Of a stretch of 64,000 bases of DNA, positions 4,622 through 59,419 are shown in pieces; the first letter of the stretch is position 1; the number at the start of each line of letters is the position of its first letter. Made by a program: the position numbers and the translations under genes. The DNA comes from Natrinema gelatinilyticum (GTDB taxonomy: Archaea > Halobacteriota > Halobacteria > Halobacteriales > Natrialbaceae), in assembly GCF_024266705.1 (NCBI RefSeq), contig NZ_CP100757.1, forward strand, positions 248,001 through 312,000, written 5' to 3'. The notes under the pieces are model-generated. The model made no database searches and was not told the DNA's origin. It saw only the letters and a list, made by a program, of their open reading frames with translations.

Positions 4622-5235
4622 CACCCTCTCTTTTAGCTAAAACATCCGTAGATACTGTCACCAGAGATATGACCCCCGAAATCTCTTCCTGTCTGTCTAC
4701 ACATCCACCACCCTCATTGCCCTGCCTATCCCCACCCTCGAGACCACTGTATAGTATTCTCTCAGTCTGATAGCTTTGCAGTTGACGCTACACTCCAATT
4801 TCTCCTGAATCCCCTCCACGAATACACCGGATTCACACCTCGTACCCCACCCTTCCTTTGGACGATTTTCGAGGCACGAATACCGATATGACGGCTGCAG
4901 AATTCTGGATAATCGCTTAGGGCTGGTTTGTACCCGTTGAATCCAGCCTTAGGATTGGATTCGATAGTTTGAATCGCATATACAGCCTTACAACGTCTCA
5001 CACTATTGAAAACAGCACTTCATTGTACTACGATCGATATTATTACTTATCCAACCTTAGGCTGAATCACTCGTGTTGCTGTTCCAACCTTAGGATTGAG
5101 GATTGAAAAGCGCTAAGGCAGTCGATATACCCGCATAAAACGGTTCTATTCAGTCTTAAACTCGTTTCTCGATTTGCATCTGGAGGCTGTGCGATTAAAG
5201 TATCAACATTCGTATCGGAAGGCGAGTGTTCTCGT
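4622..5235. other. Intergenic region with short TTAGG-containing repeats, no convincing gene
   Basis: No protein-like frame is supported across this 614-nt stretch. A short minus-strand frame at 4762-5001 has no family features. The region is relatively AT-rich and holds several imperfect copies of a CCTTAGGATTG-like sequence (see the repeat entry). It lies 3' of the primase/T4SS operon and 5' of the IS630 copy. Confidence 0.5.
4914..5160. repeat. Imperfect iteron-like repeats with core CTTAGGNTTG
   Basis: Copies seen by eye: CTTAGGGCTGG (4916), CCTTAGGATTGG (4948), CCAACCTTAGGCTGAATC (5052), CCAACCTTAGGATTGAGG (5085) and a weaker CAGTCTTAAACTC (5150). Spacing is irregular. Direct repeats beside a primase gene cluster could be an origin or a regulator-binding region, but no Rep-binding site is proven. 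Confidence 0.35.
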
Positions 5236-6741
5236 TCAGTTCGTAGGGGAGTGAGATGGATTGTTGAGTCGCTCGTACATCTCATCTGGGAACGGGAGGC
5301 TCCCATAGATCGAGTATGGGCACTGGTCACGTCCGATGCAATACCGCTGCATATCATCATTCGCACAATTCATCGGCAGGGGGATCTCACCGCCGATGTC
5401 ATTGTCAAGTTCGTAGCGAATTTGGTACTCGGTGACCTCCTCATCGTACCAGGGCCACCGCGAGAACAGGTCTTTCAGGTTGCTTATGAATTCCCCCGTA
5501 CTCGCGTCCCGGTACTGGGGGAGCCACCTTACCATCCGCACCAGATTGAACAAATCCTTCCGAACAGGTTTTTTCTCTTGGAGGCGCTCGTCCATCGCCG
5601 CCATACAGGGTAGTTCGAGGAGGTCCTCGAGGACGTCGACGTGGAGTGGTCGAGCACCGTCACTGTACTCGGTGAGCGTGTACCGATTCAAGCGTGCGTT
5701 CTCGACGACGACACTTGCATGATCACGGTTCTGTGAGAGGATGGCTCCGAGGCTTCGCGGCGAGGAAATCGAATTACAGACGTGTTGCTCCCACGTTCGC
5801 TCCGGTTCGTACGCATCGAGCGCATTATAGAGCTCACGCGCCGTCTGGGTCTCCCCGAGTTGGGCAACGCCATCGTCTGCGGCGGTCACCGCATTGATGA
5901 TCGTCCGGAGATCGCGCTTCTGCCGACTCCAGTTTTCCCATACTCGGTGGGTCTGACCGGCCTGGAAAAACCGATCAATATGTTCCGTGATCGCTGACTC
6001 GTTCGCGGTGAGCCAACTGCGTTGTTCTGAGGTCAGCACTTCTTCTTGAACCGCAAGCAGCCGGCCAAAGGCGTCCTCTGTGTACTCGCGGTACTTCGCC
6101 ATGAAGTCAGAGACGGGTACATATAGATTGTTGTCAGCGACATGGGCCTGAATCTCGCCCTGCTGATTCTCATCACCGTCTGCACGGGCCAGGCACTTTC
6201 GTGAGGCGGCGACGAGCGGAATCTCGAGATAGTACCCCTCACCGAATTCGGGGTTGATCGTGACGTCCGTACAGACACGCCCTGGATGGACACCGTCCTC
6301 CACAGGGTCTTTCGCGTAGAGTGTTTCGGCGATCTCTTGATGGAGCGACCAGTCCTCGTACTGGCGGACGAGCGACCCGATATTGTTGACGTAGAGTTCA
6401 CGCAGATCGCCGAGAAGAGCAAGATGGCGGGGCGGTGTATCCTCGAGCTTGGGATGATCCATGATACAGACGGCGCCCAGAGTCGTGAGGACGGCCAACA
6501 CTCCTGGATCGTCGACATAGGGGCGCTCGGTTGCTACCTCTCGCGTGCTTGGCGCGAACGCGTCGGTGGTGAACCGCTCGACGTCTGCGAGTAGCTTCTC
6601 TGTCTGCTGTTCACCATCGACCGTCCAGCGGTTGTATCCGCGCTCGAACAGCTGTGTGATCTGGAACTCTCCCTTGTCTCGTGGGAGTGCTGCAACTCGA
6701 TACGCTGTGTATTTGTCGTCTGTGGGCGTATCTCGGCTCAT
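5236..6741 (-). CDS. PriL-like primase-associated protein with four-cysteine Fe-S-type C-terminal domain
   Basis: 501 residues. The C-terminal third resembles the iron-sulfur domain of the archaeal/eukaryotic primase large subunit: 'ELPCMAAMDERL' (Cys379), a basic helical segment, then 'MNCANDDMQRYCIGRDQCPYSIYG' with Cys459, Cys468 and Cys474. The spacing of one early Cys and three late Cys is that of the 4Fe-4S cluster in PriL. The N-terminal two thirds are not recognisable. The gene overlaps the PriS-like gene by 4 nt (6738-6741) and ends the T4SS operon, so the two probably form a heterodimeric primase carried by the element for replicating or re-synthesising the transferred strand. Cluster presence is inferred. 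Confidence 0.65.
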   Translation of the reverse strand: MSRDTPTDDKYTAYRVAALPRDKGEFQITQLFERGYNRWTVDGEQQTEKLLADVERFTTDAFAPSTREVATERPYVDDPGVLAVLTTLGAVCIMDHPKLEDTPPRHLALLGDLRELYVNNIGSLVRQYEDWSLHQEIAETLYAKDPVEDGVHPGRVCTDVTINPEFGEGYYLEIPLVAASRKCLARADGDENQQGEIQAHVADNNLYVPVSDFMAKYREYTEDAFGRLLAVQEEVLTSEQRSWLTANESAITEHIDRFFQAGQTHRVWENWSRQKRDLRTIINAVTAADDGVAQLGETQTARELYNALDAYEPERTWEQHVCNSISSPRSLGAILSQNRDHASVVVENARLNRYTLTEYSDGARPLHVDVLEDLLELPCMAAMDERLQEKKPVRKDLFNLVRMVRWLPQYRDASTGEFISNLKDLFSRWPWYDEEVTEYQIRYELDNDIGGEIPLPMNCANDDMQRYCIGRDQCPYSIYGSLPFPDEMYERLNNPSHSPTN

Positions 6742-7631
6742 GAGTCAAGGAAGTCAGGCGTCGCCTCGGTTCGGAAGTCGAATTCCGGATCATCGATGGG
6801 GTGGACGATACGCGAGACATCGGCGTGGAGCGAGTACGGCAGCCGCATCACTCGTCGGCGATCGGCTGTGACGACCGGATCAATTGGGATCTCGTACTCG
6901 TCAAGTAACAGGTCGTTGATCACCTCACGACTTTGCTCGTCGTAGTGGTGCTCGCGGTCCGTATCGAGCAGGTAGACGTGACACCCTTGCCCCGAGTAGA
7001 CCACCATCGTCTCGTCGGCTGTAAAGTCGTCCTCGAAGATCTCCTGCACTACAAAGCCGTACTCGAGGGCTTGCTCGATATCGTTGAAGGTGTAGGGATA
7101 CCCCTCGGGCGGGCTATCGAGAATTTCTGCGGCGCGAAGCTGTTCTGTCTCGACGTCGTCGGCCTCGCCGGTGATTGTTCCACTGGAAGCGCGCTGTGCG
7201 GCGATGTCTTTCGCGTCGATATCGACCGCTAAGATCCACGGCCGCTCCCAGTGATCGAGCGCGTAGTAGACCGCGTCGGGGCGTGGCTCCGGACGGTCAA
7301 GGAGGTCTGGATCGGCGAGTGCGTAGCCACTCCCCTGAGCAGGGTCGGAGCGTGCGGGATACTGGATAAATTCGACAAAGTCCTTCACTGAGCCGAACTG
7401 CTGGACAGTACGGTCATCGGAGTTGTGGGTTTGCCACGTATCGCGGCGGATGAACGTCCGGTCGGGAGCGTTCTGATTCCGGATCGGGTACGCTTCGCGG
7501 AAGGCGATGGCGTACTGCTTCGGTCCGTCGACCGTGATGAACGACGGGAGTGAATCAAGTAGGTCTGGAAATGTCTCTGTGTAGTAGGTGTGGAGTTCCT
7601 CGCAAGTTGCTTCTCGCCATGCTCCAGTCAT
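6738..7631 (-). CDS. PriS-like archaeo-eukaryotic primase (AEP) catalytic subunit
   Basis: 297 residues. The three AEP signatures are visible: 'ILAVDIDAKD' (Asp137, Asp139; metal-binding DxD), 'VYSGQGCHVYLLD' (residues 212-223; the SGxGxH-type motif) and 'DRRRVMRLPYSLHADVSR' (residues 257-274; Arg and Ser-Leu-His nucleotide-binding motif). It is shorter than the cellular PriS (about 380 residues), and the Zn-knuckle region is not evident. It is embedded between the VirD4-like gene (4-nt overlap) and the PriL-like gene (4-nt overlap). Priming on single-stranded conjugative DNA or at the element's own origin is the likely job. Confidence 0.75.
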   Translation of the reverse strand: MTGAWREATCEELHTYYTETFPDLLDSLPSFITVDGPKQYAIAFREAYPIRNQNAPDRTFIRRDTWQTHNSDDRTVQQFGSVKDFVEFIQYPARSDPAQGSGYALADPDLLDRPEPRPDAVYYALDHWERPWILAVDIDAKDIAAQRASSGTITGEADDVETEQLRAAEILDSPPEGYPYTFNDIEQALEYGFVVQEIFEDDFTADETMVVYSGQGCHVYLLDTDREHHYDEQSREVINDLLLDEYEIPIDPVVTADRRRVMRLPYSLHADVSRIVHPIDDPEFDFRTEATPDFLDS

Positions 7632-10600
7632 GACTCGTATTCGACCTCCGTTTTGAGAGTCCGGAACGTGTTCAGAGCCGTTAACCCAGGGATCTCGTAG
7701 CTACTGATGGCCACCCGAAGTGCGCTGACGGTCTGTTTCTGAGTCGCGTTCAGCGAGATATCGATCCGGCCAGCATCCATGAGCGCGTCGATCACGTCGA
7801 GGCTCAGCTCTCGATTCTCGAACGCCCAGACCGCCTTCGCGTCGACGCTCGCAAGCTTCTCGTAGTCTGAAATTGCGGCATCGAGATTATGGCTTTTCGT
7901 CTCCACCTCGCCGACCCAACAGAGGTCGTCCGCCGTGTCGAATCCTGCGATGTCGAAGACGGTCTCTGCGTCGTACTCGAAGTACCGCTCTGTCCGCTCG
8001 ACGTCCTCTTGGTGCTGAATAAGCCACGTATCGAGGAAGACGACGCCCACTTTGTGAGGCGTTTTCTCGCCAAGATCTCCGACTCCGAGACTGCAATCGA
8101 GCGTGCGATCGAGGAATGTTCGTCCAGCCGGTAACACAGTGTAGTACTTCTGGCGGAACGAGCGGTGCTGTTCGAGGAAGTCCTTTTCTTTGAGCGTCTC
8201 GATATCCAGATTGGAGAAGGACTTCTCGAAATCGGTCATGCTCTCTAAGAGTGAATACTCATCGAGTTGGTGGTTCATCGCATCCAGTACGAGACCGAGG
8301 AACGCCGCTTCGTCCCGTGTCACACCTTCAGCACGGAGTGTATCATCAGGGATGTCCGTCGTGGCCTCTCTGAAAAGCGTCGAATCCGACGTGGCCTGAT
8401 TCTGATCCTGTTCGTGTTTAGATGCCCCTTCTGTCCCTCCATTGGGAACTGCAGCAGCCTCGTCCGTGGATTCCTCGAGGAGCGCAAAGTCTTGGATCGT
8501 CACCTCGATGCCGTACTCCTCGGCGTATTCGGTAATGTTCCCGAGTCGGGTAAAGAGTTCACTGGTGGTTTCGGCTGTGTCACGTGCTCGGCGGGCGGCA
8601 ACGTAGACATCATCTTTCGACGCAAACTGGCAACATGCGCTGGCCTCTCGCTCCTCAGACGTGGGATACTCGGACCCACAGAGGGCACAGACGTAGGACT
8701 CCACACACCTGTCGTATCTCACGTGCTCGGGAAGCGACTCCCCACCCGACGTTTCCGTCGTCTCTCCCGAGTTCGTTGTGGCTTGGTCTACATCCGTGGA
8801 CTGAGGAGACGCAGTATCGTTCTGATGCTCTTGTGTTGCCGCCGCTGCCTGCTCGACAGAGGATTGTTGATGCTCCTCGGATGCCTGCGGGTCGTCTCCA
8901 GCAGCGCCGAACATGGGCACGCTCCCGATATCCCGCTCCTCATTCGGTGCAGTATTGGACAGAGTGTCGGCCGTCGCGGTCGCTGTCCCGTCATCCGTAG
9001 AGGCGCTTGTGTCATCGCTCGCGCCTTCTGCGCCGAAGAAGGGAGCATCCAAGAAGGGGCCACCGTTGGCCGCTCCACTCCCCGCTATGCTCTCACTCGT
9101 CGTCGCAGGCTCACCGACGGCGTCATCACCGACCTCGTTGAGCGTCTCCTGGACTTCCTCGCGGGCAAGCCGACTCGTCCGACCCGGAAGGCTACACTCG
9201 TATTGCGTCCGCCGCATCACACTAGGAATCTGCTGTTCTTCGAAGAGATGCAGGTCGTCGCCCGACAGTGGCGCGTCGCTCTCCGGATGACCGTCGGGGA
9301 TCGGCAGCGATGCAAGTGAGAACGGCACCGGGCCCGTCTCTCCGAAATGGGGGGTCGGCAACTGGACGATCCACTCCCCGGCCGGCAGGCGATTCACGCG
9401 ATTGCTGAACTCGGACGTACTCAGGTTCTCGTGGGCCATCGACTCGGCGAGCTTCGCATCCGTCGCGATGTTCCCGATGAGCTTCGTCTTGACGTTGTTC
9501 AGGATCTCCGTATACGCCCGGTCCGACGTGCTGTACTGCGCGACCTGCTCGGGATATTGGAGAATCAATCCGAGACTTACGCCGAACGCTCGTCCCTGAG
9601 GGATGAACTGCTCGTAAACCAGCGAGGACGTCGCGATTGCCGCTGCCTCCTCGATGATCATATTCACGATCGTGTCGTCTGCGTCACCCCCATGCTGACG
9701 GGAACCCCCGCTCAACGACCGACCCCCTCCACGACGACCCTGGACGGCGTCCCAGAGGTTACTCAACAGGATCATCGTCAGAGCGTGCTGGGATTCGGTG
9801 CGAAACTCCCCCAGGTCGAACAGGATGACTGCGTCCGTGTTGACGAACTCACGGAAGTCGAAGGCATTCCCGACGAATTCCTCGGCCTCGTCATCCCACT
9901 CGGGCACGTGGGTGAACATTTGGTAGAGGTGCTCATGCTCAACGAGCTTGTCGAGACGATTCGCCGCCGCGCCCATCGTCTGCTGGAACTGGCGGTCGTC
10001 CACCTGGCACTTCTGAACTAGCGACTGTTCGATATGCGAGTTCGCCTCGCAGAGTTCAGGAAGCGTCCGGTCCCGGCTCATCCGGAACACAGCCTGAATC
10101 AGGTCCTCGAGGCTGAACGCGTCCCGGCCGTACTCCCGGTCGAATAGCGCCTTGATCAGGAAGGTCAGAATCTCGTTGGCGACGTATGCCTGCTCGTGAC
10201 GCTCCTCGCCGAGGATGAGCCGCATGATCTCGTGGAAGTGTTCGACCTTGTCCTGGACGGCGTCCTCACGAGAGCGCCCCATCGCAAGCGCTGGACGAAT
10301 ATCGAAAAACGAGACCGCTGGCAGCATCTTCGGCGCGTTAAAATAGTAGACGTCGTCCAGAGTCCCGTGTTTCGCGTAGTGGGCGTGGAGATAGTGCTCG
10401 GCCATCCCGTCGCCTTTCCCATCAAGGAGAACGGTGGGGCCGTCGACGTGTTCGTGGAGTGAGAGCATTTCGGCCTGCACGGCTGTCGACTTCCCACTCC
10501 CTGTCGACGCCGCCCGAATGTAGCTCGTGGTCAGGAGATTCGGCGGAATACGAATCGGTTGGTCCAAGGATTCGTTCCGGTTCCGGAGGGGCTTCCCCAC

Positions 10601-11848
10601 CGCCATGCCCGCTCCGGCGAACACATCGAGAAGATCTGGGTCGGGCAACGGCAGTGGCTGGCGGAGTCGCTCCTTCCCGCGAGCACCACGTGACCCCTCG
10701 ATTGTCAGTGTCTGTGCGCTCGGCACCGCCACGAAGTTCGCGAGTTCATCCGCGTTCAGAATGAGCTGGGGCCGACGCTTCCCCATTGAGGACTGGTTGA
10801 ACGAACGGTTGACCAATCGGTTTAGCTCCTTCTGTGCGGGGTCTCGAATGTTGGTTAAGCTCTTCGTGACGCGGCTGCCGTCGAGGTGATAGAAATAGCC
10901 ATCTAAGTGATTGAACGCATTTGCGAGCGTTTCGATGTTGTTCGCCGCCTGTGGTTTGACTGCCTCAACAGGCTCGTTCGAGAGGACCGCGACCGTCCGA
11001 ACGTTCACGAGAAACGTCTGTGAAGGCCCCTTCTGGTCGATGAGTGCCTGTCGGGAGGCGACCTCGCCGCTGGCTGCACTCGACGTCTGCCGGGTACTCT
11101 CACCGACGTGTGGCGGATCACGGCCACGTCTCCGATCTCGAATCCGCTCTTCGTCGGCACCGTAGACCATATCGGCGAGACTGGTTCGTGCGGATTGGAG
11201 GGCACCGTCGTGCTTGGTCTCAATCTGCTTTTTGCGACCTTCAGCGAACTTCTGCCAGCTGCGGTACCGCATGAACAACACCTGCAACGCGGTGGGGGCT
11301 GTAGCCTCTGTAAGTCGTTCAACAGCCGTCGCTAGCGGAGCCCGTGCTGGGTCCTCCGAACTAGTGCCTTCCTCTTGGATCTGCGAGTACTGCTTGATCG
11401 GTGTCATCCAGTCGCGGCTCCGCTCGCCGACGCCGCTCCAGCGGGCTGCGATTGGTGTGTGCTCTGAGAGCAAGATTTCTCGTTTCTTGGTGTCGGTTTC
11501 CCCTGTTGAGTGGAGGGCTACCTCGTCTTCGTCTGGACGACAGAGTTCTACACGGAGGTCGACTGTCTCCTCGTAAATGTCGTAGCTTGCTGGGTACGCA
11601 GTCTGAAGTTCGGATTCGATCGTCGGCAGCAGTCCCTCATCGTCAACGCCGAGATAGAACCGAACCGGCGCGTCATCTCCTCGAGTAAGTACAAGGAATT
11701 CGAATATGGGCGGGCTCTTCCGCGGGTCGTATTTGACTCTCCACCCCGTTCGAAGCTTCCGCAATCCAGCAATTCTGGACACGATGTCGGCCGAATCGAC
11801 GCGTTCCCGCGCTGGTTCAATGCGGATGTAGCGACGAGTGTCAGTCAT
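7628..11848 (-). CDS. VirD4/TraG-like coupling ATPase with zinc-finger and nuclease-like C-terminal extension
   Basis: 1406 residues. Walker A is 'RAASTGSGKSTAVQAE' (about 445-460) and Walker B 'IVNMIIEEAAAIA' (about 727-739). An 'ILQYPEQVAQYS' segment after it resembles the sensor region of TraG/VirD4-type DNA pumps. Residues 900-1030 are a low-complexity acidic linker. A Cys cluster 'CVESYVCALCGSEYP...ACC' (about 1040-1065) looks like a zinc finger. The last ~160 residues contain 'FDIAGFDTADDLCWVGEVETKSHN' followed by 'ISDYEKLASVDAKAVWAFEN', which has the D...ExK arrangement of PD-(D/E)XK nucleases (Asp1299 or Asp1304, Glu1316, Lys1318). It probably delivers DNA to the T4SS channel. The nuclease-like end is an inference from motif only. 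Confidence 0.8.
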   Translation of the reverse strand: MTDTRRYIRIEPARERVDSADIVSRIAGLRKLRTGWRVKYDPRKSPPIFEFLVLTRGDDAPVRFYLGVDDEGLLPTIESELQTAYPASYDIYEETVDLRVELCRPDEDEVALHSTGETDTKKREILLSEHTPIAARWSGVGERSRDWMTPIKQYSQIQEEGTSSEDPARAPLATAVERLTEATAPTALQVLFMRYRSWQKFAEGRKKQIETKHDGALQSARTSLADMVYGADEERIRDRRRGRDPPHVGESTRQTSSAASGEVASRQALIDQKGPSQTFLVNVRTVAVLSNEPVEAVKPQAANNIETLANAFNHLDGYFYHLDGSRVTKSLTNIRDPAQKELNRLVNRSFNQSSMGKRRPQLILNADELANFVAVPSAQTLTIEGSRGARGKERLRQPLPLPDPDLLDVFAGAGMAVGKPLRNRNESLDQPIRIPPNLLTTSYIRAASTGSGKSTAVQAEMLSLHEHVDGPTVLLDGKGDGMAEHYLHAHYAKHGTLDDVYYFNAPKMLPAVSFFDIRPALAMGRSREDAVQDKVEHFHEIMRLILGEERHEQAYVANEILTFLIKALFDREYGRDAFSLEDLIQAVFRMSRDRTLPELCEANSHIEQSLVQKCQVDDRQFQQTMGAAANRLDKLVEHEHLYQMFTHVPEWDDEAEEFVGNAFDFREFVNTDAVILFDLGEFRTESQHALTMILLSNLWDAVQGRRGGGRSLSGGSRQHGGDADDTIVNMIIEEAAAIATSSLVYEQFIPQGRAFGVSLGLILQYPEQVAQYSTSDRAYTEILNNVKTKLIGNIATDAKLAESMAHENLSTSEFSNRVNRLPAGEWIVQLPTPHFGETGPVPFSLASLPIPDGHPESDAPLSGDDLHLFEEQQIPSVMRRTQYECSLPGRTSRLAREEVQETLNEVGDDAVGEPATTSESIAGSGAANGGPFLDAPFFGAEGASDDTSASTDDGTATATADTLSNTAPNEERDIGSVPMFGAAGDDPQASEEHQQSSVEQAAAATQEHQNDTASPQSTDVDQATTNSGETTETSGGESLPEHVRYDRCVESYVCALCGSEYPTSEEREASACCQFASKDDVYVAARRARDTAETTSELFTRLGNITEYAEEYGIEVTIQDFALLEESTDEAAAVPNGGTEGASKHEQDQNQATSDSTLFREATTDIPDDTLRAEGVTRDEAAFLGLVLDAMNHQLDEYSLLESMTDFEKSFSNLDIETLKEKDFLEQHRSFRQKYYTVLPAGRTFLDRTLDCSLGVGDLGEKTPHKVGVVFLDTWLIQHQEDVERTERYFEYDAETVFDIAGFDTADDLCWVGEVETKSHNLDAAISDYEKLASVDAKAVWAFENRELSLDVIDALMDAGRIDISLNATQKQTVSALRVAISSYEIPGLTALNTFRTLKTEVEYES

Positions 11849-14078
11849 CGGCCTCTTGGGGCGCTATCGGGACACCGGCCTCATCGAGCAGCGAGTCCGA
11901 AATGTCGTAGTCGTCGACACGATCCTCCTGGGCAAGATACTCGACGTCGCCGGCGTCGATGTAGTGCTGGTCAACGAGATACTCCCACGGGTCGAGGTCA
12001 TCGTCGAGGACGTGGATCTCGTAGTCGTTCACGTGGAGAGCAAGGGATTTCGTCCAGTCGTTGACGGCGAGCAGACACTCCGAGTAGCCGCCGTCTTCAC
12101 CGGTCTGCGCGGTTGCAATGTAGGTCTGCTCGGAGAGCGTAAGGTCGTGGAAGTCAATCATGGCGTCGCTGACCGACTCGTGGTGGAAGATCTGCTTGAT
12201 GTCACAGAGGTTGTAGACGTTCCGCGCCTTCTCGACGGCCTCCTCGGACTTTTTATCCGATTTCGCGATGAACTCATCGACTGTCTGGGAGATGAGTGTG
12301 ATCGCCGTGTTGAAATGGCGACTGTGCCGGATGAACAGGTCGATCATATCCGTCGTCGCCGCTCTTCGGAGGAGGTAGTGCGCCTCGTCGATGGTAACCT
12401 GGGTACGGCGATCGCTGCTCTGGGCGCGCTGGTAGATCCAGTCGAACATGACGTGCATGAACAGCGGCGCCTGGCCAGTGTCGGCGAACATCGACATGTC
12501 GATGACGACGAGGCGATTGTCGAGTTCGACGTTCGTGCGGCCGTTCAGGTTGTCGTTCTCACCGCCGTGCTGGAACGCTTCCAGGCCGAGGAGGAGTTGG
12601 TAGGCGTATTTCTCATCAATCTCTTTGAACCGCGTCTCCAGTTGTTCGATTTCCGGCCGAACGTGCTCTTCGTTTACATTCTTGTGAAGTTCGATGAACT
12701 CCGACGGTTGGGCGCCGTCCGCGAGTGCGTGCAGGATATCGAGGACGTCCTGCATCGTCGGACTCGCATTCTCGTGTGTCGCCAGATCGGCCGTGATACC
12801 GTATTTGAGATAGGCGAGGCGGACAGCCCGCCGGAGGATGCCCTCCTGTTCTTTGCTCAAGGACTGGTCGGCGATGGCCGAAAAGTGGGTGCGGAACAGC
12901 TCCATCACAGAGCGGAATTTCTTCTTAAACGGATCGTCAGCAACATCGTCGATGCCACGCCGGATTTCGAGTGGGTTGACCGTGTTCTGCCCGCCGAAGC
13001 GGATGACCTGGCCACCGAGGTCGTTTGCGAAGTCGACGAAATCCCCGAGCGGATCGAGGACGAGCATCTCGATCTCGGGATCCATCATCATGCGATGGTA
13101 CATCTCGTGCTTCTCGGCGAACGTCTTCCCCGACCCCATCTTTCCAGCAATCGCCTTCGAATATGACGAGAGCCGGTAGCGGTCCAACAGAACGGGCGTG
13201 TTCGTCCCGTCGAACCCATAGAAAACGCCCTCCGGATCGGCCACGGCTGGCTCGATAAAGGGGAACATCGTCCCGACGGCTGTCTCCTGCATGAGCTGGG
13301 TGGCCTTGAGGGGGTCATCACCCAGCGGGGCGAGTGCGTCTTGGGATTCTATCTGGCGTTTGTCGAGCGTGACCGCTCTGGCATTCGCGGCGCCAAGGGT
13401 TTCGACGATGCGTTCGGTCGCTTCATCGAGATCTTGCTCGGTATCGGCGATGATCTCGATGTAGATCGCGAAGTCGAAGAGTTTCGTCTCACCGAGGATG
13501 ATGTCCCAGATGAGTTCCTTGACCATGTCACGGTCGGCCTCAGCCTCGTGGGTGTCGGTCTGGTTCTTCTCGTATTTCTTGTGCAGGCGGGCTCGAAGCT
13601 GTGTGAGGCGTTTCTGGAGTTTCCGGAGGACTGATCCTGTGTCGCGGGGTTCGATGTGTTGGGTAACTCGGACGTGGTCGTTCGTCGTGTAAAGGTTCTC
13701 GAGCCATCCCAGCGGGACACGCTCGGGATAGCCGTGGATAGTGAGGGTGCGAACGAACTGGTCATTGCGGACCATATATCCCGACTCGAAGAGGTTCGAT
13801 ACCTCCTGGAGCTGGCGCGGGGCTATAACATCCCGATCGGCAAGCGCCTGTTCGGTCTCGTCCTGCATGACGCCAAGCCGGAGTTCCCCGTCGTCGACGT
13901 CTTCGACTTCGAGCAGATACTCGGCTTGCTCGCGGATGTTCTCCTTCGTGAGGTCGTCCCCGTTCGCTTCGAGAATCTCGGCAGCGCGGTCGAACGTCTC
14001 ATCGTCGATGTCATCGATGCTCGGCTCGCTACTCCCCACAGGAAGCCACGAGCGAACGCGGGCGAATCGCCTCGTCAT
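11841..14078 (-). CDS. VirB4-family T4SS ATPase
   Basis: 745 residues. Walker A 'AIAGKMGSGKTFAEKHE' lies at about 309-325 and Walker B 'TQVTIDEAHYLL' at about 559-570. 'MLVLDPLGDFVDFANDLGGQVIRFGG' and 'PLFMHVMFDWIYQRAQ' are typical of VirB4/TraC-type ATPases. The N-terminal 250 residues match the VirB4 N-domain in style ('FVRTLTIHGYPERVPLGWLENL' and a coiled-coil stretch). VirB4 energises pilus and channel assembly at the cytoplasmic membrane. The gene overlaps its upstream neighbour by 4 nt and the VirD4-like gene by 8 nt, placing it firmly in the operon. Confidence 0.9.
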   Translation of the reverse strand: MTRRFARVRSWLPVGSSEPSIDDIDDETFDRAAEILEANGDDLTKENIREQAEYLLEVEDVDDGELRLGVMQDETEQALADRDVIAPRQLQEVSNLFESGYMVRNDQFVRTLTIHGYPERVPLGWLENLYTTNDHVRVTQHIEPRDTGSVLRKLQKRLTQLRARLHKKYEKNQTDTHEAEADRDMVKELIWDIILGETKLFDFAIYIEIIADTEQDLDEATERIVETLGAANARAVTLDKRQIESQDALAPLGDDPLKATQLMQETAVGTMFPFIEPAVADPEGVFYGFDGTNTPVLLDRYRLSSYSKAIAGKMGSGKTFAEKHEMYHRMMMDPEIEMLVLDPLGDFVDFANDLGGQVIRFGGQNTVNPLEIRRGIDDVADDPFKKKFRSVMELFRTHFSAIADQSLSKEQEGILRRAVRLAYLKYGITADLATHENASPTMQDVLDILHALADGAQPSEFIELHKNVNEEHVRPEIEQLETRFKEIDEKYAYQLLLGLEAFQHGGENDNLNGRTNVELDNRLVVIDMSMFADTGQAPLFMHVMFDWIYQRAQSSDRRTQVTIDEAHYLLRRAATTDMIDLFIRHSRHFNTAITLISQTVDEFIAKSDKKSEEAVEKARNVYNLCDIKQIFHHESVSDAMIDFHDLTLSEQTYIATAQTGEDGGYSECLLAVNDWTKSLALHVNDYEIHVLDDDLDPWEYLVDQHYIDAGDVEYLAQEDRVDDYDISDSLLDEAGVPIAPQEADD

Positions 14079-15139
14079 CGGTGCTCACCCTCTGTTTTCG
14101 TCGCGTGCGAAAATTTCTCGAACTGTGGATCGACGTGGTTGTAGTAGTGATAGAGAATCTCCATCGTCTCCTGGCGGTCGGTGACACGTTCGATGGAGAC
14201 GTCCGTCCGGCCGAGTTTGTTCGTGATCCGGCGCTGGCGCTGCCGGACCTCGCGAATACAAAGCTCGGTACGTGCGGCCTCGTCGGAGTCACCCAGTGAC
14301 GTTCGATCGACTATTCGCGAGTAGATAGTGCCGATGACCGGGAGGGTACCGAGCTGACTCAACACGCTTCCCGTATCGAGGTCCTTGTGGACGTGGTCGG
14401 CGTCGACGCGAGTGACGATGTAGAAATCGCGTTGTTTGAGGTCCTCGTCCTCGATATTCGTGTTGGCCCACTGGATGTAGAATTTGCGCCCGTACTGGAG
14501 GATGGGAGTCTGGCCGCGTGAGGTCATGCTCGCACCTGCTTTGTAGAAGCGCTCGAGATGCCCCGTTAGATCGAAGGGCTTCGGATAGCAGGGCACCGCA
14601 ACGCTAGACTCCAGCGACATCAGGAACGACATGTACGCGCTCATCGTGTCGCGTTTTGCCTGATCACTGAGTGAAAGCCAGTTCTGCGGATGGACTTTTA
14701 GCAGGCCAATGTAGCTGCTCTCGTCGACGGCGATGCCATCGTCACGGACGTAATCGAACCCGAGTGTCTCTTGAGCAGTCGTTGAGCCGCCAAGACGATT
14801 CTCGAGGTCGAAGTGATCCCGAGCCCGGGCTCGTTTGCGAGCAGTCGGGAGATTGGTGTCAATATCGTCGAGGAAGGTATTGAGTGCACGGAGGACGTCG
14901 AGATCTGACTCGGGTACTGTCGACGCCACTCCGTTTTGAGTCGCGGCTGTCGGATGGCTATCGTTCTGTGAATCGGAACCTGGTGCTTGGGTGGAATCGT
15001 CCGCTGGCGAAATCGTCGTCGATTGTGTAGTTGGAGTATCGGATGGGGAGCTCCCGTTCGTGGTCTCGTCCTCATCGGGGTCTCTCTCTTCGTCAGAAAC
15101 GGTTTCATCGGTGATTTCATCAGAGGTTGCAGGGCCCAT
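14075..15139 (-). CDS. T4SS-associated protein, possibly VirB4-N-domain-like
   Basis: 354 residues. The first 100 are a disordered, acidic Ser/Thr/Asp-rich tail. The rest contains 'LGFDYVRDDGIAVDESSYIGLLKVHPQNWLSLSDQAKRDTMSAYMSFLMSLESSVAVPCYPKPFDLTGHLERFY', a pattern seen in proteins encoded between PrgI-like and VirB4-like genes and reminiscent of the N-terminal substrate domain of TrsE/TraC-type ATPases. There is no Walker motif and no convincing membrane segment, although 'LPVIGTIYSRIVD' is mildly hydrophobic. Co-translation with VirB4 (4-nt overlap) suggests a partner in the same complex. The precise role is unknown. Confidence 0.6.
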   Translation of the reverse strand: MGPATSDEITDETVSDEERDPDEDETTNGSSPSDTPTTQSTTISPADDSTQAPGSDSQNDSHPTAATQNGVASTVPESDLDVLRALNTFLDDIDTNLPTARKRARARDHFDLENRLGGSTTAQETLGFDYVRDDGIAVDESSYIGLLKVHPQNWLSLSDQAKRDTMSAYMSFLMSLESSVAVPCYPKPFDLTGHLERFYKAGASMTSRGQTPILQYGRKFYIQWANTNIEDEDLKQRDFYIVTRVDADHVHKDLDTGSVLSQLGTLPVIGTIYSRIVDRTSLGDSDEAARTELCIREVRQRQRRITNKLGRTDVSIERVTDRQETMEILYHYYNHVDPQFEKFSHATKTEGEHR

Positions 15140-15145
15140 GTGAGA

Positions 15146-15532
15146 TCACCTCGATTTGGTCTCCGGTTCTGCGTCGATCGCCTCGATGTCGAGACCGTTC
15201 TGTCGGACACCGATGACGTCCTGGATCACCGGCGTCTCTGCGTCGGGCCTGGTGCGGCGATTGTAGTAGGCATTCGACGAGAGATAGTAGTCGACCGCAG
15301 CACGGGCGTAGCTGATTGGTCGCTGACCAGCGGGTGCAACGAGGAGGATGAGAATGCCGAGTGCGAGTCCGATTCCGCCAGCGATCATGAACACTGTACC
15401 GGTGAACCCGAGGCTCTGAACGATACCGAGGGCGAGAAATGGGATGATGAGAACCTCGCCAACTTCGCGAGCGGTGAGGCCATAGACTACCTTTGTATTG
15501 ATGATTCGGCCAGCGATCGGGAACGTCTCCAT
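15146..15532 (-). CDS. PrgI/VirB3-like small membrane protein of the T4SS
   Basis: 128 residues. Two closely spaced hydrophobic segments ('GEVLIIPFLALGIVQSLG' and 'GTVFMIAGGIGLALGILILLVA', about residues 25-70) sit near the N-terminus, followed by a soluble tail with 'RPISYARAAVDYYLSSNAYYNRR'. This layout, and the position directly ahead of the VirB4 module, match PrgI/VirB3-type inner-membrane components. It is the first gene of the operon that runs down to 5236; the AT-rich stretch upstream is the probable promoter. Confidence 0.7.
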   Translation of the reverse strand: METFPIAGRIINTKVVYGLTAREVGEVLIIPFLALGIVQSLGFTGTVFMIAGGIGLALGILILLVAPAGQRPISYARAAVDYYLSSNAYYNRRTRPDAETPVIQDVIGVRQNGLDIEAIDAEPETKSR

Positions 15533-15831
15533 GCCGTTATTTTACCAAAGCAAATTATTAATAGTTTTCATATTGGAGATATTTACAATATATTTGAATA
15601 CTACAAATTATCTTCCAGATCGTTGTTTTATTGATGAGACTACTTGGATCACTCTGTGTAGATGTAAGTGAATGATAAACTATGCACCCATTCTAGTCAA
15701 CTATCATACTATTTCGGAAGGTTCTAGAAGTTCGTGCACCCAATATGCGACATTAAAAAATATTTGGAGCGTGTATTTTCATTTCCGAATGATAATTTCT
15801 CTCACTCATCCAGCGTGTTTGACCCGGAACC
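15533..15831 (-). promoter_or_regulatory. AT-rich intergenic region, probable promoter of the T4SS/primase operon
   Basis: This 299-nt stretch is much more AT-rich than the genes around it. On the minus strand, ACTATTAATAATTTGC lies about 30 nt ahead of the ATG at 15532 and could supply a TATA box close to a short leader or leaderless start. No gene is seen here. The exact start site is not determined. Confidence 0.4.
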
Positions 15832-16302
15832 TCAGATGCTAACTTCTGCGCCACATTTTGGGCAATCTAGCGCTGGCTCACCGTTGTGTATCACGAATTC
15901 CATGTACTCGCTTTCACCGCACTCTTGACACGGAACAGCAGTTCGAATGTCAGTCGATTCCTGTGGAGTACCCAAAGCCAGCGCTCGAAGAGGGTCGTCG
16001 GACTCGTTGCGACCTTGTTGATATTCCCCTCGCTCGAACCGGATCATCTGTCCTTCGCTTACTGTGACGGTCTCGCTGTCCCCCGTTGGTTCCGTTTTCG
16101 TCTCAAATGTTGCCTCTCCCTCAAGAATGAAAAATGACTCTTCTTGGTCAAGGTGGGTGTGAAGACTCCCAGCGAATTCTTCTCCTGGATCAAGAGCATA
16201 ATAGTTCATTGAGAAGTCCTGTGCGTCAAGAGGGGCGGATACGCTTTGTCGACTTTGGGGCGACTCTGCCGGCTTCAACTCAGTGATGTCAACATTCTGC
16301 AT
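15832..16302 (-). CDS. Cupin-domain protein with C-terminal zinc ribbon
   Basis: 156 residues. The cupin motifs are present: 'GEEFAGSLHTHLDQEESFFILEGEATFE' (HxH...E motif 1, about residues 41-68) and 'EGQMIRFERGEYQQGRNESDDPLRALALG' (motif 2, with a Gln or Asn in place of the usual His). The C-terminal 40 residues carry 'VPCQECGESEYMEFVIHNGEPALDCPKCGAEV', a CxxC...CxxC zinc ribbon, which is unusual for a cupin and resembles haloarchaeal fusions of unknown role. It lies in a cargo segment between the T4SS blocks, on the same strand. Confidence 0.75.
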   Translation of the reverse strand: MQNVDITELKPAESPQSRQSVSAPLDAQDFSMNYYALDPGEEFAGSLHTHLDQEESFFILEGEATFETKTEPTGDSETVTVSEGQMIRFERGEYQQGRNESDDPLRALALGTPQESTDIRTAVPCQECGESEYMEFVIHNGEPALDCPKCGAEVSI

Positions 16303-16750
16303 AGCATATACCGGTGTCTCCTAAACAAATAAAAAACTATCGTCGATTAATGAAGGAACAGTTCGACAGTCTCTTACCAAGTCACGAGTCTTCAAGACAT
16401 CTATCTGTAGCATTTGAAACGCAATAGACTCTCATCATAGAACCTAATCTAAAGGTTTGACCGGACAGATTAGGGTCATCGAAAATAAGAGTCGTTGACA
16501 CTTTCCCAATTGGTGACTAACAACTCGACCTGGTCGTTGATCAAGTCCTCGACAGTGTCTATCCTTTTGGGTGCAGTGCCATCTTCGACCTCTTCTTGCA
16601 CAAGGGACCTCGTGGCAAGGAAGTATCACGGGGACGGGGGGAGATCCGAGGCATTCTCATTGTAATATTGTAAATGTGCTTGCTGGTCATTCAGAGATTG
16701 AAAACCAGCATTGCCTCTATATCTCATGGCTACCTTTCCATTCGTCAAGG
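16303..16750. other. Intergenic region, no firm gene
   Basis: No recognised gene. On the minus strand between about 16600 and 16479 a short open frame reads 'VQEEVEDGTAPKRIDTVEDLINDQVELL...', which looks protein-like (acidic, heptad-like) but has no start beyond a GTG and no family match; it may be the end of a decayed gene. The rest holds nothing notable. Confidence 0.35.
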
Positions 16751-16915
16751 ATGAGTGATCAGGGTGCTACAAGGGGTCTTTCCATTCGATGCTCCAAATG
16801 TGGGGCCATATATCCTGCTCGCCGACTTCCTAGTGGAAAGTTAATGCGAGACGGTAACCGGATAGCTTGCCAATGTGGGAAGCAGTCATTTATCGAATTG
16901 AATTATAACGGTTGA
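16751..16915 (+). CDS. Small zinc-finger protein (54 aa)
   Basis: The ATG at 16751 gives a 54-residue protein. It contains 'IRCSKCGAIYPARRLPSGK' (CxxCG) and 'IACQCGKQSF' (CxCG), a four-Cys zinc-binding set typical of haloarchaeal zinc-finger microproteins. The longer in-frame opening upstream lacks such composition, so the short start is preferred. Microproteins of this type often act as regulators or adaptors, but this one is not identified. Confidence 0.55.
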   Translation: MSDQGATRGLSIRCSKCGAIYPARRLPSGKLMRDGNRIACQCGKQSFIELNYNG

Positions 16916-16919
16916 GTGA

Positions 16920-17045
16920 ACCCCTCAGGGTTGAGTAGTTCGAAGCCCTTCGCGTTTCGTCATCAAGCGAAACCGAAGGTTCAATCATTCGTGCGGTGAT
17001 TCACGCCCGGCCTGAAGACCGGGATTCTCTCGCTTAAAGAAGAGA
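16920..17045. repeat. Orphan IS200/IS605-type palindromic end (LE-like)
   Basis: The stretch GATTCACGCCCGGCCTG (16998) begins a hairpin (CCCGG...CCGGG) and is followed by GATTCTCTCGCTTAAAG. The same pattern occurs at 45.26-45.36 kb and at the right edge of the MITE-like elements (33.7 and 55.9 kb). No transposase gene adjoins it, so it is a solo end or relic. Confidence 0.5.
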
Positions 17046-17060
17046 GAGCGCCGAGATCGC

Positions 17061-18389
17061 CTACGACGTATCGTACTCAAGAAACCGAACGTCGACCCTC
17101 ACGTCGTCTCCCGTTACGTCGGTGATTCGTTCGTCCAGTTCCGAGATAAGTTCCGAATACTCGTCATCAACTGGCTTCTCGACCGTGATTACGATACGTC
17201 TGGGTTCCCCGAGTAGGGACCCTTCTTCGATTCGTATTGCGGGCTCAAACGGGGTTCCTTCCTCGAGAAACAGTTCGACTTCGGCGAGGAAGACGTCCTG
17301 ATACGCCGGCGAGTCAAGGACGGCCTCCGCTTCCGTCGTGACGTCGTTCTCAAGCGATGCGTGTTCATACGTCGCCCATGTGACGCCGATCAGGAATGTC
17401 GACAGTACTAGGATGACAAGCGTCAACCCGACCACACGACGACGGACTAACTGACGTGCGATCCCTGTCTCACTCCGGGTTTGGGGACGGTACCCCATCG
17501 CCCAGAGGGTGAGGAGGCCCATGATATTGACGCCCAGCAGGTTGACGAAGACGAGGATGAGCGAGCCGACTGCGGCGTTTGGTATCCACCACGCGATAGC
17601 GATACCGGCGGCTGCGGCGGGCGGGATCAGTGCAGCGGTGATCATCACGCCAACCAGTGCGACGGAGGTTCCCGTCGAGAGACTCAATACGCCGGCAATT
17701 CCTGCGCCGAAGGCGACGACCAGCGAGAGGAGATTAGGAAGGACCCGTTCGCTGACTTCGTCGATTTCGAGGACCTCGATCCCGGGCGGTACAAAAAACA
17801 ACGACTTCGAGAGCCACGCGAACGCCGCGGAACCGCCGATCGCTACACCGACGCCGAGCACTTGATACACAATCCCGGTCCAGAGCAGGTCGCGTTCATT
17901 GAGAACGGTCCCGACGCTGGCTGCGAGCGTCGGTCCAATTAAGGGCGCGATCACCATCGAACCGACTACGACGGCGGCCGAATCGAGTAACAGCCCGGCC
18001 GTCGCGACGATTGCACTCACCAGCGTCAGCGTCACGTATATCGGAATCGTCAACATGAGCCCTTCCGATTCGGCGTATAGTTCGTTGCGAGCGAGGCGCT
18101 GATCGTCCAGTACCTCTCCTGTGTACCGATCTTTGAGAGCTCCGAACTTTCGGGAGATGACCATGTCTGCCGTAACGATCACCGTATGATCGTCCTCGCC
18201 GAGTCCGGCTCTCTCTAACTCATCCAGGACGACTTCGACGGCGCTTTTCGGGAGGGTGAACGAAACGAGGGATTCGTACTCGCTGCTGTCGTTGGTCGGA
18301 ACGACTGTGTAGTCAATTTGTTCCGAGTCAAGTACCTCCAGGACAGGGTCGCGCGTCTCCGGTCGAACCGAAATCTCGACGTGGCGCAT
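17061..18389 (-). CDS. TIGR00341/DUF389 family multispanning membrane protein
   Basis: 442 residues from ATG 18389 ('MRHVEISVRPETRD'). A start at 18515 would add residues unlike the family. The N-terminal soluble domain (1-110) is followed by a core with about six membrane segments, including 'AESEGLMLTIPIYVTLTLVSAIVATAGLLLDSAAVVVGSMVIAPLIGP' and 'LSTGTSVALVGVMITAALIPPAAAAGIA', signatures of DUF389. A soluble C-terminal tail has 'RIVITVEKPVDDEYSELISELDERI'. The function of the family is unclear; some members have been tied to stress or transport. It is flanked on both sides by orphan IS200/IS605-type ends (16.92-17.05 and 18.50-18.57 kb), suggesting transfer with mobile DNA. Confidence 0.85.
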   Translation of the reverse strand: MRHVEISVRPETRDPVLEVLDSEQIDYTVVPTNDSSEYESLVSFTLPKSAVEVVLDELERAGLGEDDHTVIVTADMVISRKFGALKDRYTGEVLDDQRLARNELYAESEGLMLTIPIYVTLTLVSAIVATAGLLLDSAAVVVGSMVIAPLIGPTLAASVGTVLNERDLLWTGIVYQVLGVGVAIGGSAAFAWLSKSLFFVPPGIEVLEIDEVSERVLPNLLSLVVAFGAGIAGVLSLSTGTSVALVGVMITAALIPPAAAAGIAIAWWIPNAAVGSLILVFVNLLGVNIMGLLTLWAMGYRPQTRSETGIARQLVRRRVVGLTLVILVLSTFLIGVTWATYEHASLENDVTTEAEAVLDSPAYQDVFLAEVELFLEEGTPFEPAIRIEEGSLLGEPRRIVITVEKPVDDEYSELISELDERITDVTGDDVRVDVRFLEYDTS

Positions 18390-18500
18390 GGAAAACTGGC
18401 CACTGGAGACAGACATCAAACATTGGGCGCGTCTCGGCAACTTGAAACCGAAAACGGTCATAGGCAACCGAGTCTTCCGCTTCAATTCCATCGATTTAGC

Positions 18501-18574
18501 TGTAATTGAGGGCACTAAGCCCCCTTCCTCAAGGAGCGACCGAAGCGAGCGAGTAGGGGGGATACAGCGCCGTC
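18501..18574 (+). repeat. Orphan IS1341-type palindrome (omegaRNA-scaffold-like hairpin)
   Basis: The sequence starts TGTAATTGAGGGCACTAAG and ends GGGGGGATACAGCGCC. GGCACT/AGCGCC and CCCCC/GGGGG can pair around an inner CTCAAGGAG...GCGAGCGAGTAGG part. That inner part closely resembles the 3' end of the intact tnpB gene at 31.95 kb. No tnpB lies next to this copy. Confidence 0.55.
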
Positions 18575-18897
18575 CGACTTATCTCCGCTCGCTACGCGAA
18601 CACGCCGGCTATAGGAATTAGCAAAACAATCCATAGTATTGCTTCAGTGCTCTTCAGAGACTGACAAATATGCGGTGATGAATACAGGGCGCGAATGCAG
18701 CACGAACTGATCTTTATGATCGCTCACTACAGGTACAGAGAGCTGATCAAGAATTCAGAAATAGTCAGCTATCTATTACGATCATCATGTCATGAAATCC
18801 TTCTCGAGTATCGTCACTGTATTATATGGAATGCTGGAATACGAGCGTGTGAGTCGGTAACAACTGCTGCTGTGGGCCACTCAGAGAGGCATGAGCC
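18575..18897. other. Intergenic region, no gene seen
   Basis: About 320 nt between the orphan palindrome and the DUF1254 gene. One short plus-strand frame (18695-18901) has no protein-like features. Nothing else is recognised. Confidence 0.4.
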
Positions 18898-20028
18898 ATG
18901 AGCAACGAGACAAATCACACGACGCCAGAATCGAGTTCCGAACCGCTGCGGGCAACGCGCCAAAGCGCACTTCGCGGGGCGGGCCTTGCCGGAATGCTCG
19001 CGCTGGGTGGTGGCAGTGCCACTGCCAGCCGAAACCCCTCGCAGGCGAACACCCAGGAGGCTGAAACCGAGACGTCAGCAGCTGACGAGTCAGTTCCGGT
19101 CACGTGGGAAAACTTCCCACGGTCACAGATACATCTCATGATGGAGAACATCGTCAAACAAGGCGGGTTCGGCGAATTTTATCATTTCCCGACGATAGTC
19201 GGCCCTGAGGTGCGGATCGCGGCCTTGCCCAATCGCGACACGATCTATTCGATCGGTGTCTTCGACCTGGCCGAGCCGGTCACCATTACCAAACCAGACA
19301 CCGGTGATCGTCACCAGTCGATGGTCGTCATGGATGAGGACGCGTATGTGAAAGAGGCGTACCAGGATTCCGGCGAGTACACGTTGACCCAGGACGGGGT
19401 CGGGACGCGGTACGTGTGGGTCATCGTCCGCACGTTCGTCGACCCGAACGATCCGGATGACGTAGCAACTGTCCATGAATTACAGGACGAACTCGCAGTG
19501 AGCCAGGACTCAGCCGGCGCGTTCGAGGTTCCCAATTGGGACCGTCAGGCACACCAAGAACTCTTCGACGCGCTCGTCACAGTCATGAAAACGATTGACG
19601 ACTACAGCGGTGCTTATGGCGACGTCGACGAGGTCAACCCTGTGAAGTACTATCTCGCCACTGTGACACCGGGCGGCGTTCCGGAACCAGAAACGATCTA
19701 TCTGCAAAGGGTCCCCGACCAGAACGACGGCGAGACGCCACACACGTTCACCGTCCAGGACGTCCCCGTCGACGGATTCTGGTCGGTCACCGTCTACAAC
19801 AACGACGGGTTTCTCGAGGAGAACGAGTACGACGCGTACTCGTTCAACAACGTGACTGCAGAGCCGAACGATGACGGTAGTGTCACGATCCATTTCGGCG
19901 GTGACCCCGATCAACCGAACTTCCTCTACACGCCAGAGGAGTGGTTCTACGTGGTCCGGCTCTACGGTCCGCGCGAGGAGATTCTCGACGGAAGCTATCA
20001 ATTCCCCGAAGCCGAGCCGATTGAGTGA
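18898..20028 (+). CDS. Exported DUF1254/DUF1214 domain protein
   Basis: 376 residues. An N-terminal region 'RATRQSALRGAGLAGMLALGGGSATA' (about 18-43) resembles a Tat-type or lipoprotein-like signal but has RQ instead of the twin Arg, so export is uncertain. The N-terminal half has the DUF1254 pattern ('FYHFPTIVGPEVRIAALPNRDTIYSIGVFDLAEPVTITKPDTGDRHQSMVVMDED') and the C-terminal half the DUF1214 pattern ('TVQDVPVDGFWSVTVYNNDGFLEENEYDAYSFNN' and 'NFLYTPEEWFYVVRLYGPREEILDGSYQFPE'). Such proteins are common but their biochemical role is unknown. It is one of few plus-strand genes in the element and so appears to be cargo. Confidence 0.85.
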   Translation: MSNETNHTTPESSSEPLRATRQSALRGAGLAGMLALGGGSATASRNPSQANTQEAETETSAADESVPVTWENFPRSQIHLMMENIVKQGGFGEFYHFPTIVGPEVRIAALPNRDTIYSIGVFDLAEPVTITKPDTGDRHQSMVVMDEDAYVKEAYQDSGEYTLTQDGVGTRYVWVIVRTFVDPNDPDDVATVHELQDELAVSQDSAGAFEVPNWDRQAHQELFDALVTVMKTIDDYSGAYGDVDEVNPVKYYLATVTPGGVPEPETIYLQRVPDQNDGETPHTFTVQDVPVDGFWSVTVYNNDGFLEENEYDAYSFNNVTAEPNDDGSVTIHFGGDPDQPNFLYTPEEWFYVVRLYGPREEILDGSYQFPEAEPIE

Positions 20029-20296
20029 CAAGGGCGCGAATATTGATGGTCTGATGACTGGATCGACGTGACTCGACCGTTGCTCGTCTTTCGTTTCGTG
20101 CTGACAGTCGTGCTGAACGTATGCTCTATATCGGTCACTGCGATTTCATTATGTGTGAAATCTGCCACGTTTGAGATTATGAAAACTTACGCTAATCATT
20201 ATAGATAGCGAAGCGTTGCCGCATTGACTGGTTGGCCTCCATCGGCCGTCTCGTCCACGGTCAGGCGGCCTCCGACGGTGATTCCCCTGTTCGCTG

Positions 20297-20794
20297 CTAG
20301 CGACTACTCTCGAGTCGCCGAATTCGACACCGCACCGTTTCCCATTCGCTCAGGTCCATCCAGACATCCTCTGCCTGGTTGTAGTCGGCATGCTCGAGTG
20401 CGTCGACGTCGTCCGGCCGTTCAGCGCTGTATTGCTCGCGGAACTCCTGCTCGTGGGTCGTGAGCTCGGTGAGCCGTTCCTGAAGCTGGCTGGACGAGAG
20501 TTGCTCAAGGCGGCTGCGTTTCCGCCATTCAAAGTATGATTCGTTCCGCCGATACGTTGCTGGGGAGTCACTGATCTGCTCGATGACGCCGATCTCGACG
20601 AGGCAAGTGAGATGCCGCCGGGCAGTATCGGGGACGCAGTCAGCTCGTTTCGCAACATCGGAGACCCGCGTCGGCTCGTAGAGTTGGAGTGCAACCCGGT
20701 AGACGCGCTCGTCGGTCGGAGCTGAGGCCAGGTCGGCCCCGAACTCGGCTGCGAGGTCGAACTCCGCCAGTGGGTCAGTATCCGGACCGGGCAT
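20297..20794 (-). CDS. Winged-helix transcriptional regulator (DUF7342-like)
   Basis: 165 residues from ATG 20794 ('MPGPDTDPLAEFDLAAEFGADL'); ATG 20842 is an alternative. The wHTH is 'DERVYRVALQLYEPTRVSDVAKRADCVPDTARRHLTCLVEIGVIEQ' (about 25-70), followed by 'ATYRRNESYFEWRKRSRLEQLSSSQLQERLTEL' and a helical C-terminus. The same layout is found in the protein at 43.2-43.7 kb ('ADCSPNAAKKHLERLTEMGIV', 'AQYERNDGYLEWQE'). It is the last gene of the T4SS block and may regulate it; it lies 76 nt from the AAA+ gene. Confidence 0.75.
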   Translation of the reverse strand: MPGPDTDPLAEFDLAAEFGADLASAPTDERVYRVALQLYEPTRVSDVAKRADCVPDTARRHLTCLVEIGVIEQISDSPATYRRNESYFEWRKRSRLEQLSSSQLQERLTELTTHEQEFREQYSAERPDDVDALEHADYNQAEDVWMDLSEWETVRCRIRRLESSR

Positions 20795-20870
20795 GAACCA
20801 TGGTACGAGCTTGTGTTTATTATATTGTGTCTCTGGCGACATATTTCGCGAGAGATTGAAAGGCCCTGAG

Positions 20871-22238: not shown

Positions 22239-22239
22239 A

Positions 22240-26475: not shown

Positions 26476-26485
26476 GTGGTGGTAC
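26476..26485. repeat. 10-bp target site duplication, right copy (GTGGTGGTAC)
   Basis: Right-hand copy of the duplication made by the IS4-type insertion, identical to 25074-25083. Confidence 0.85.
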
Positions 26486-59095: not shown

Positions 59096-59419
59096 CGATG
59101 ATCTCGAGCAATTCTCAAAAATGGGCACACTCGATTCTTTTCTCGTTACACCAGCCGTCATCGTGGCTCTCGCGTGAGAGTGACCACGTATGTGTACGAT
59201 GGCGCTGCAAGTGTCAAAGGCGTCTTCTCGAGAGCCAGTGACACCTGATGTCCTCGGGAAACATGCCAAACCCCGTCTCGAGTTCGAGCCAACGTCGACC
59301 GATCGAACGAGAGACCAACACGTAACGAAACCACACGTACAACCGCGATCGCGGTAGATTAGTCGTTTTGTCGATCTGAATGAGCCCGGTTGGGCGATGA
59401 TCTACTCCTGTGGCCACAC
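59096..59419. other. Intergenic region, no gene seen
   Basis: 324 nt upstream of the primase fragment. No frame with family features; the homology to the intact primase gene has already ended. Confidence 0.4.

Follow-up and report, generated by a model that had tools for sequence, protein, structure and literature searches.

A single polypeptide of Natrinema gelatinilyticum, encoded within the window (the whole 64,000-nucleotide stretch of DNA that was analyzed), joins a putative coupling ATPase to a C-terminal winged helix and a domain confidently predicted to have the PD-(D/E)XK fold. We propose, with a probability of slightly under one-half, that in this haloarchaeal conjugation system the coupling protein has a relaxase-like module incorporated in its C terminus, and that a stem-loop with direct repeats downstream of its operon is likely the origin of transfer (oriT).

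The fusion gene lies in a type IV secretion operon

The fusion gene is present in a single copy in the host genome. Its domains, the genes around it, and the noncoding elements downstream are as follows.

4831 to 4881, minus strand: candidate oriT stem-loop in noncoding DNA, with the core TCGTCCAAAGGAAG at 4852 to 4865
4942 to 5098, minus strand: iteron-like direct repeats TCCTAAGGTTGGA, at 4942 to 4957, 5050 to 5065, and 5083 to 5098
5236 to 6741, minus strand: primase-associated protein (NF038197, E = 1.7e-233)
6738 to 7631, minus strand: PriS-like primase (TIGR00335, E = 1.5e-9)
7628 to 11848, minus strand: 1406-residue coupling ATPase bearing a winged helix and a nuclease domain at its C terminus; the ORF fills the span
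7631 to 8065, minus strand: PD-(D/E)XK-fold domain, residues 1262 to 1406, with H1265, D1299, E1314, and E1316 (model, alignment)
7901 to 7909, minus strand: ExE motif, residues 1314 to 1316 (alignment)
8105 to 8350, minus strand: MarR/PadR-type winged helix, residues about 1167 to 1248 (model)
8630 to 8707, minus strand: Cys cluster, residues 1048 to 1073, optional in the family
8711 to 9151, minus strand: acidic low-complexity linker, residues about 900 to 1046 (sequence)
9179 to 10675, minus strand: RecA-like motor, residues about 392 to 890, with Walker A at 448 to 455 and IIEEA at 731
10679 to 11848, minus strand: N-terminal domain, residues 1 to 390, without a transmembrane segment (AlphaFold model, hydropathy)
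11841 to 14078, minus strand: VirB4-type ATPase (NCBIfam NF045971, conju_CD1110, E = 5.6e-65)
14075 to 15139, minus strand: conserved 354-residue protein, perhaps a split VirB4 N-domain (synteny)
15146 to 15532, minus strand: small membrane protein, possibly PrgI/VirB3-like (synteny)
20871 to 22271, minus strand: AAA+ ATPase of the operon (Pfam AAA, E = 7.3e-39; synteny)
22240 to 23721, minus strand: multi-spanning membrane protein, possibly VirB6-like (synteny)

The genes for the 354-residue protein, VirB4, the fusion protein, the primase, and the primase-associated protein form a tight operon in which gene ends overlap or touch. Two related loci, L002 and L005, have the order membrane protein, AAA+ ATPase, PrgI/VirB3-like protein, 354-residue protein, VirB4, fusion protein, primase, and primase-associated protein, and the gene set around the fusion protein is a type IV secretion operon of haloarchaeal type; VirB6, PrgI, and VirB4 N-domain are names given by inspection, without profile support. 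The PrgI-like and AAA+ genes, which adjoin in L002 and L005, are separated in the window by ∼5.3 kb (15600 to 20870) containing cupin-like, membrane, and DUF1254-like ORFs; this stretch appears to have been inserted into the operon. Elsewhere in the window, a transposase-like ORF (25109 to 26392) overlaps a secreted-protein-like ORF (26175 to 27038), apparently interrupting it (both named by inspection), and the C-terminal coiled-coil part (2168 to 2423) of an NrS1-polymerase-like ORF recurs as a truncated copy at 58787 to 59269.

Sequence favors a coupling-protein motor

The original prediction of a VirD4-like ATPase in this reading frame held up, in that sequence comparisons favor assignment of the N-terminal and motor parts to the VirD4/TraD class of coupling ATPases. 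Coupling proteins of bacterial MOBC plasmids match with an E value of 1.4e-12, versus 5.6e-7 for VirB4 proteins, and the protein carries the motor motifs STGSGKST at 448 and IIEEA at 731. TrwB_AAD_bind (PF10412) and TraG-D_C (PF12696) are each found in 12/26 homologs; the window protein by itself gives only DUF87 (E = 0.019). Residues 1 to 900 were modeled from an alignment of 26 homologs (pLDDT 80, pTM 0.64), and the core (∼392 to 890) superposes on VirB4 (Z = 23.3), TrwB (Z = 22.7), and HerA (Z = 22.2), all within about 1 Z, such that the model places the motor in the superfamily without choosing among the three. HerA or VirB4 identity was considered and set aside, the structure being indecisive and the sequence scores siding with coupling proteins.

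The fusion protein resembles VirD4, TraD, and TrwB in its RecA-like motor, in its TrwB_AAD_bind/TraG-D_C similarity, and in having a separate VirB4 gene in the operon, but it is twice the length, carries the winged helix and nuclease, and lacks an N-terminal anchor. No N-terminal transmembrane segment was found, the highest 19-residue hydropathy (1.36) being located in the motor; some coupling proteins have no membrane anchor.

A predicted PD-(D/E)XK fold with a conserved ExE motif

The motor is followed by the long acidic linker that had been predicted and by cysteines at positions 1048, 1054, 1057, 1072, and 1073. These had been read as a fused zinc finger, and although the cluster is present, it is retained only in close relatives and one distant clade; because many homologs have the nuclease but no such cluster, we regard it as optional, not as an essential part of the protein. 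The model of residues 1147 to 1406 (pLDDT 90.3, pTM 0.86) contains a winged helix, then an alpha-beta-beta-beta-alpha-beta arrangement. Structural matches of the winged-helix part are MarR proteins (Z = 8.6), and those of the nuclease part are AF1548 (Z = 8.0), PaqCI, the BspD6I small subunit, Can2/Card1, EcoT38I, and BstEII; no individual score is high, but the matches include many members of a single superfamily, PD-(D/E)XK. The structure prediction and the restriction endonuclease matches thus bear out the nuclease-like fold first proposed for the C terminus.

The details of the active site are different from those proposed. Among 40 representatives with <75% identity, H1265 and D1299 never vary, E1314 is present in 38/40, and E1316 in 33/38, with D1328 (30/39) and K1331 (27/39) less conserved. 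GEVETK does lie at 1313 to 1318, with a helix-strand unit after it in the model, and the D and E residues are kept in close homologs, but Lys1318, named as catalytic, occurs in only 2 of the 40 (the window protein and L004) and is lost already in relatives with 80% overall identity. The condition originally set as refuting, loss of D...ExK in close homologs, tells against the lysine and leaves the D and E residues standing. The predicted active site therefore appears to read H..D..ExE rather than D..ExK, and Glu1316, the acid named originally, is usual, although E1314 is the better conserved of the two in the alignment; in some members ExL or ExV stands in place of ExE. PD-(D/E)XK variants without the catalytic lysine exist, such as BamHI. 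The presence of the module in 99 plasmid records, together with the conserved H/D/E/E residues, indicates that the motif is more than chance. Relatives were not found in viral contigs, and a search for defense-system homology in PADLOC gave nothing convincing.

The fusion is the rule among large haloarchaeal homologs

The fusion had been presented as unusual, which proved not to be the case. With a minimum length of 1100 residues (a cutoff that favors extended proteins, applied to collected loci of which a few were retrieved via the nuclease itself), there are 44 distinct ATPase homologs, of which 31 carry the nuclease type seen in the window, 13 carry a second type (alignment A5), and none has neither; fusion is thus the rule (44/44) among the large haloarchaeal homologs examined. 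ATPases of only 806 to 882 residues bear the nuclease module too. The two types are related in the nuclease part, as judged from a profile comparison (probability 80%, E = 1.4e-5) whose score of 37 compares with 12 ± 2 in column-shuffled controls. We also observed free-standing winged helix-nuclease modules of about 290 to 340 residues (L035 to L037, L110, L111, L114, L116, L118, and L191:29566-30534), and modules placed behind an unrelated N-terminal region of ∼500 residues in proteins of 750 to 770 residues (L038, L107, and L109).

A conserved stem-loop downstream of the operon

Downstream of the primase-associated gene is a noncoding block with 89% identity over 103 bp to L005, the operon itself having 84%; the block contains the stem-loop, with the iteron-like repeats alongside. 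In 116 genomes, the core pattern was found 26 times versus 5 for the reversed pattern among the matches listed, and most core matches are one element, TGCATATCGC-GGWTTTCGTCCAAAGAAAGAG-GCGATATGCA, with a conserved right flank. This element is present in 46 PLSDB records (with ≥90% identity in 44), with no feature annotated there, and no Rfam family matches it at the gathering score. In all 32 records for which both coordinates are available, it shares its strand with the fusion gene and lies 2.7 to 14.9 kb downstream of that gene.

Because the arms are identical at most sites, a statistic for arm complementarity did not separate the element from a swapped-flank control, and support for a stem comes from a few divergent sites in which the arms are different and the stem is kept: L005 (ATTCGCACCTCG/CGAGGTGCGAAT), L161 (TTGCATATCGC/GCGATATGCAA), L004 (CCTGTACC/GGTACAGG), and L175 (TTTGCACC/GGTGCAAA). 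Arm pairing is imperfect in the window's own copy. The stem-loop is missing at the expected place in 11/20 downstream regions examined, and it is recognizable in only about half as many plasmids (46) as the module (99). We nonetheless consider that the stem-loop with its direct repeats is likely an oriT.

Two plasmids help to tell an oriT from a replication origin. Haloplanus aerogenes plasmid pJCM16430-01 (41 kb) carries the element and an Orc1/Cdc6 replicon, without coupling, VirB4, or primase-pair genes, and has a stand-alone nuclease module (the L191 copy) about 600 bp from the element. Halolamina plasmid pCBA1230-03 (53 kb) has the element and Orc1/Cdc6 genes but lacks the transfer genes altogether, and another plasmid of the same strain (NZ_CP054589) carries the element together with the fusion gene. 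Mobilizable plasmids bearing an oriT show such a pattern, and it counts against a replication origin tied to the primases, although two cases are few and not proof.

Comparison with MOBC relaxases and other systems

The MOBC relaxases, including TraX of pAD1 and MobC of CloDF13, are PD-(D/E)XK-related, and TraX has a winged helix at its N terminus (PMC12857230; PMC5714925). We compared the module with a set of 15 such proteins, most of whose plasmids are typed MOBC by PLSDB; TraX of pAM373 exceeds the Pfam Replic_Relax (PF13814) cutoff. In both groups a winged helix precedes a PD-(D/E)XK-type domain, and the invariant MOBC residues H102, D152, E170, and E172 occur in the same order as H1265, D1299, E1314, and E1316 of the module. 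The MOBC invariant residues also include K176, R180, Y181, and Y203, but the K176, R180, and Y181 that follow ExE are not conserved in the haloarchaeal module, and MOBC is confined to bacteria in the sets compared here. A coupling-protein gene adjoins or closely precedes nearly all genes of the set, with a 1-base overlap with mobC in L055, whereas the haloarchaeal module is fused to the coupling protein. In the MOBC transfer origin the repeats lie well away from nic (PMC12857230), an arrangement to which the stem-loop with its repeats may be likened.

None of 30 module members has a Pfam hit, including to Replic_Relax. The nuclease part scores weakly against a Gram-negative MOBC profile (22 versus a null of 11 ± 2; E = 0.007) and at null against a Gram-positive one, as does a Mrr nuclease control; generic Mrr nucleases were accordingly dropped as nearest kin. 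With the K/R/Y residues missing and Pfam silent, we do not claim MOBC membership. By analogy, the module may work like MOBC without being MOBC, and the shared architecture, together with a stem-loop linked to the coupling gene, makes it more plausible that the module stands in for a relaxase, as the original prediction had suggested.

HerA-NurA and HerA-containing defense complexes likewise pair a nuclease with a motor of the same superfamily, but as separate subunits, whereas the nuclease here is fused and sits in a transfer operon; its structural matches are of the restriction endonuclease type, and the RNase H-like NurA is not among the matches listed, although a relationship to it may exist. 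Sulfolobus pNOB8-type and Thermococcus pT33-3 plasmids are similar in having VirB4/VirD4 homologs and no recognized relaxase (PMC12857230), and a 2025 review describes no known relaxase on the archaeal conjugative plasmids that it covers (PMC12857230). A PF03432 relaxase was not found in the N. gelatinilyticum genome nor in 39/41 genomes searched, and a PF13814 relaxase was not found in the N. gelatinilyticum genome. MobA-type relaxases (PF03432) exceed the cutoff in two haloarchaeal genomes (G027:C45:9603-9833 and G037:C13:12243-12467; L122 and L123), indicating that classical relaxases are present in this group but rare.

A proposed mechanism and its alternatives

In the mechanism that we favor, the winged helix would recognize the transfer origin by binding the repeats or the stem, and the H/D/ExE nuclease, presumably metal-dependent, would nick it site-specifically. 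The motor, joined to the module within one polypeptide through the flexible acidic linker, would pump the single strand into a VirB4-containing channel, and the operon's primase would prime the complementary strand. The module would thereby replace a separate relaxase. In its fuller form, to which we give somewhat less than even odds, this is a fused and previously unrecognized class of relaxase in which one polypeptide recognizes, nicks, and pumps, with the stem-loop as its oriT; small plasmids that have only the stem-loop, or the stem-loop and a free module, would be mobilized in trans. We count against the favored explanation the missing canonical lysine, the ExL/ExV members, the unconserved MOBC K/R/Y residues and weak MOBC profile similarity, and the patchy occurrence of the stem-loop (46 versus 99 plasmids; absent in 11/20 regions).

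Alternatively, the nuclease fold of the module could be degraded, leaving a domain for recognition or docking that brings the motor to the plasmid while another, unrecognized protein nicks. The canonical lysine is absent in 38/40 representatives, ExE is replaced in some members, and in bacteria the relaxosome is a separate complex to which the coupling protein docks. However, the invariance of H1265 and D1299 and near invariance of E1314 across very divergent and free-standing copies is typical of a retained active site, and the lack of a PF03432 or PF13814 relaxase in the organism's own genome also argues against docking alone, which we think unlikely. A nuclease that is active but cuts or trims the double-stranded substrate of a double-strand pump, in the style of phage terminases or HerA-NurA and without relaxase-type site-specific nicking, would be consistent with a motor structurally as near HerA as TrwB and with the motor-nuclease pairs common in the HerA/TrwB superfamily. 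We consider this rather improbable, because a winged helix and a conserved DNA element of strict orientation point to action at a specific site and the primase in the operon fits single-strand transfer.

The stem-loop and repeats could also be a replication origin or control site of the primase genes, linked to the coupling gene only by neighborhood. In several plasmids the element does follow the primase-associated gene at a distance of about 365 nt, and iteron-like repeats adjoin the stem-loop. Yet pJCM16430-01 and pCBA1230-03 carry it as Orc1/Cdc6 replicons without these primase genes, pJ7-1 has an Orc1/Cdc6 of its own in addition to the full set of element, fusion gene, and primase pair, and in some cases the element is as far as 10 to 15 kb from the coupling-primase genes; a replication role is the explanation that we hold most doubtful.

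Implications for archaeal conjugation

Coupling proteins and PD-(D/E)XK relaxases are already known; their fusion as a haloarchaeal rule and a candidate archaeal oriT were not found described in the open-licence papers searched. PLSDB types as non-mobilizable every one of the 144 records that have the coupling protein and of the 46 that have the stem-loop, so that if our reading of these two components is true, plasmid typing is blind to archaeal transfer. If the nuclease module and the stem-loop prove, as they may, to be the nicking enzyme and transfer origin so far missing from archaea, they would constitute the first relaxase-oriT pair for archaeal conjugation by type IV secretion. With a nuclease on every large coupling ATPase examined and a linked site, the archaeal relaxase question becomes directly testable in tractable haloarchaea.
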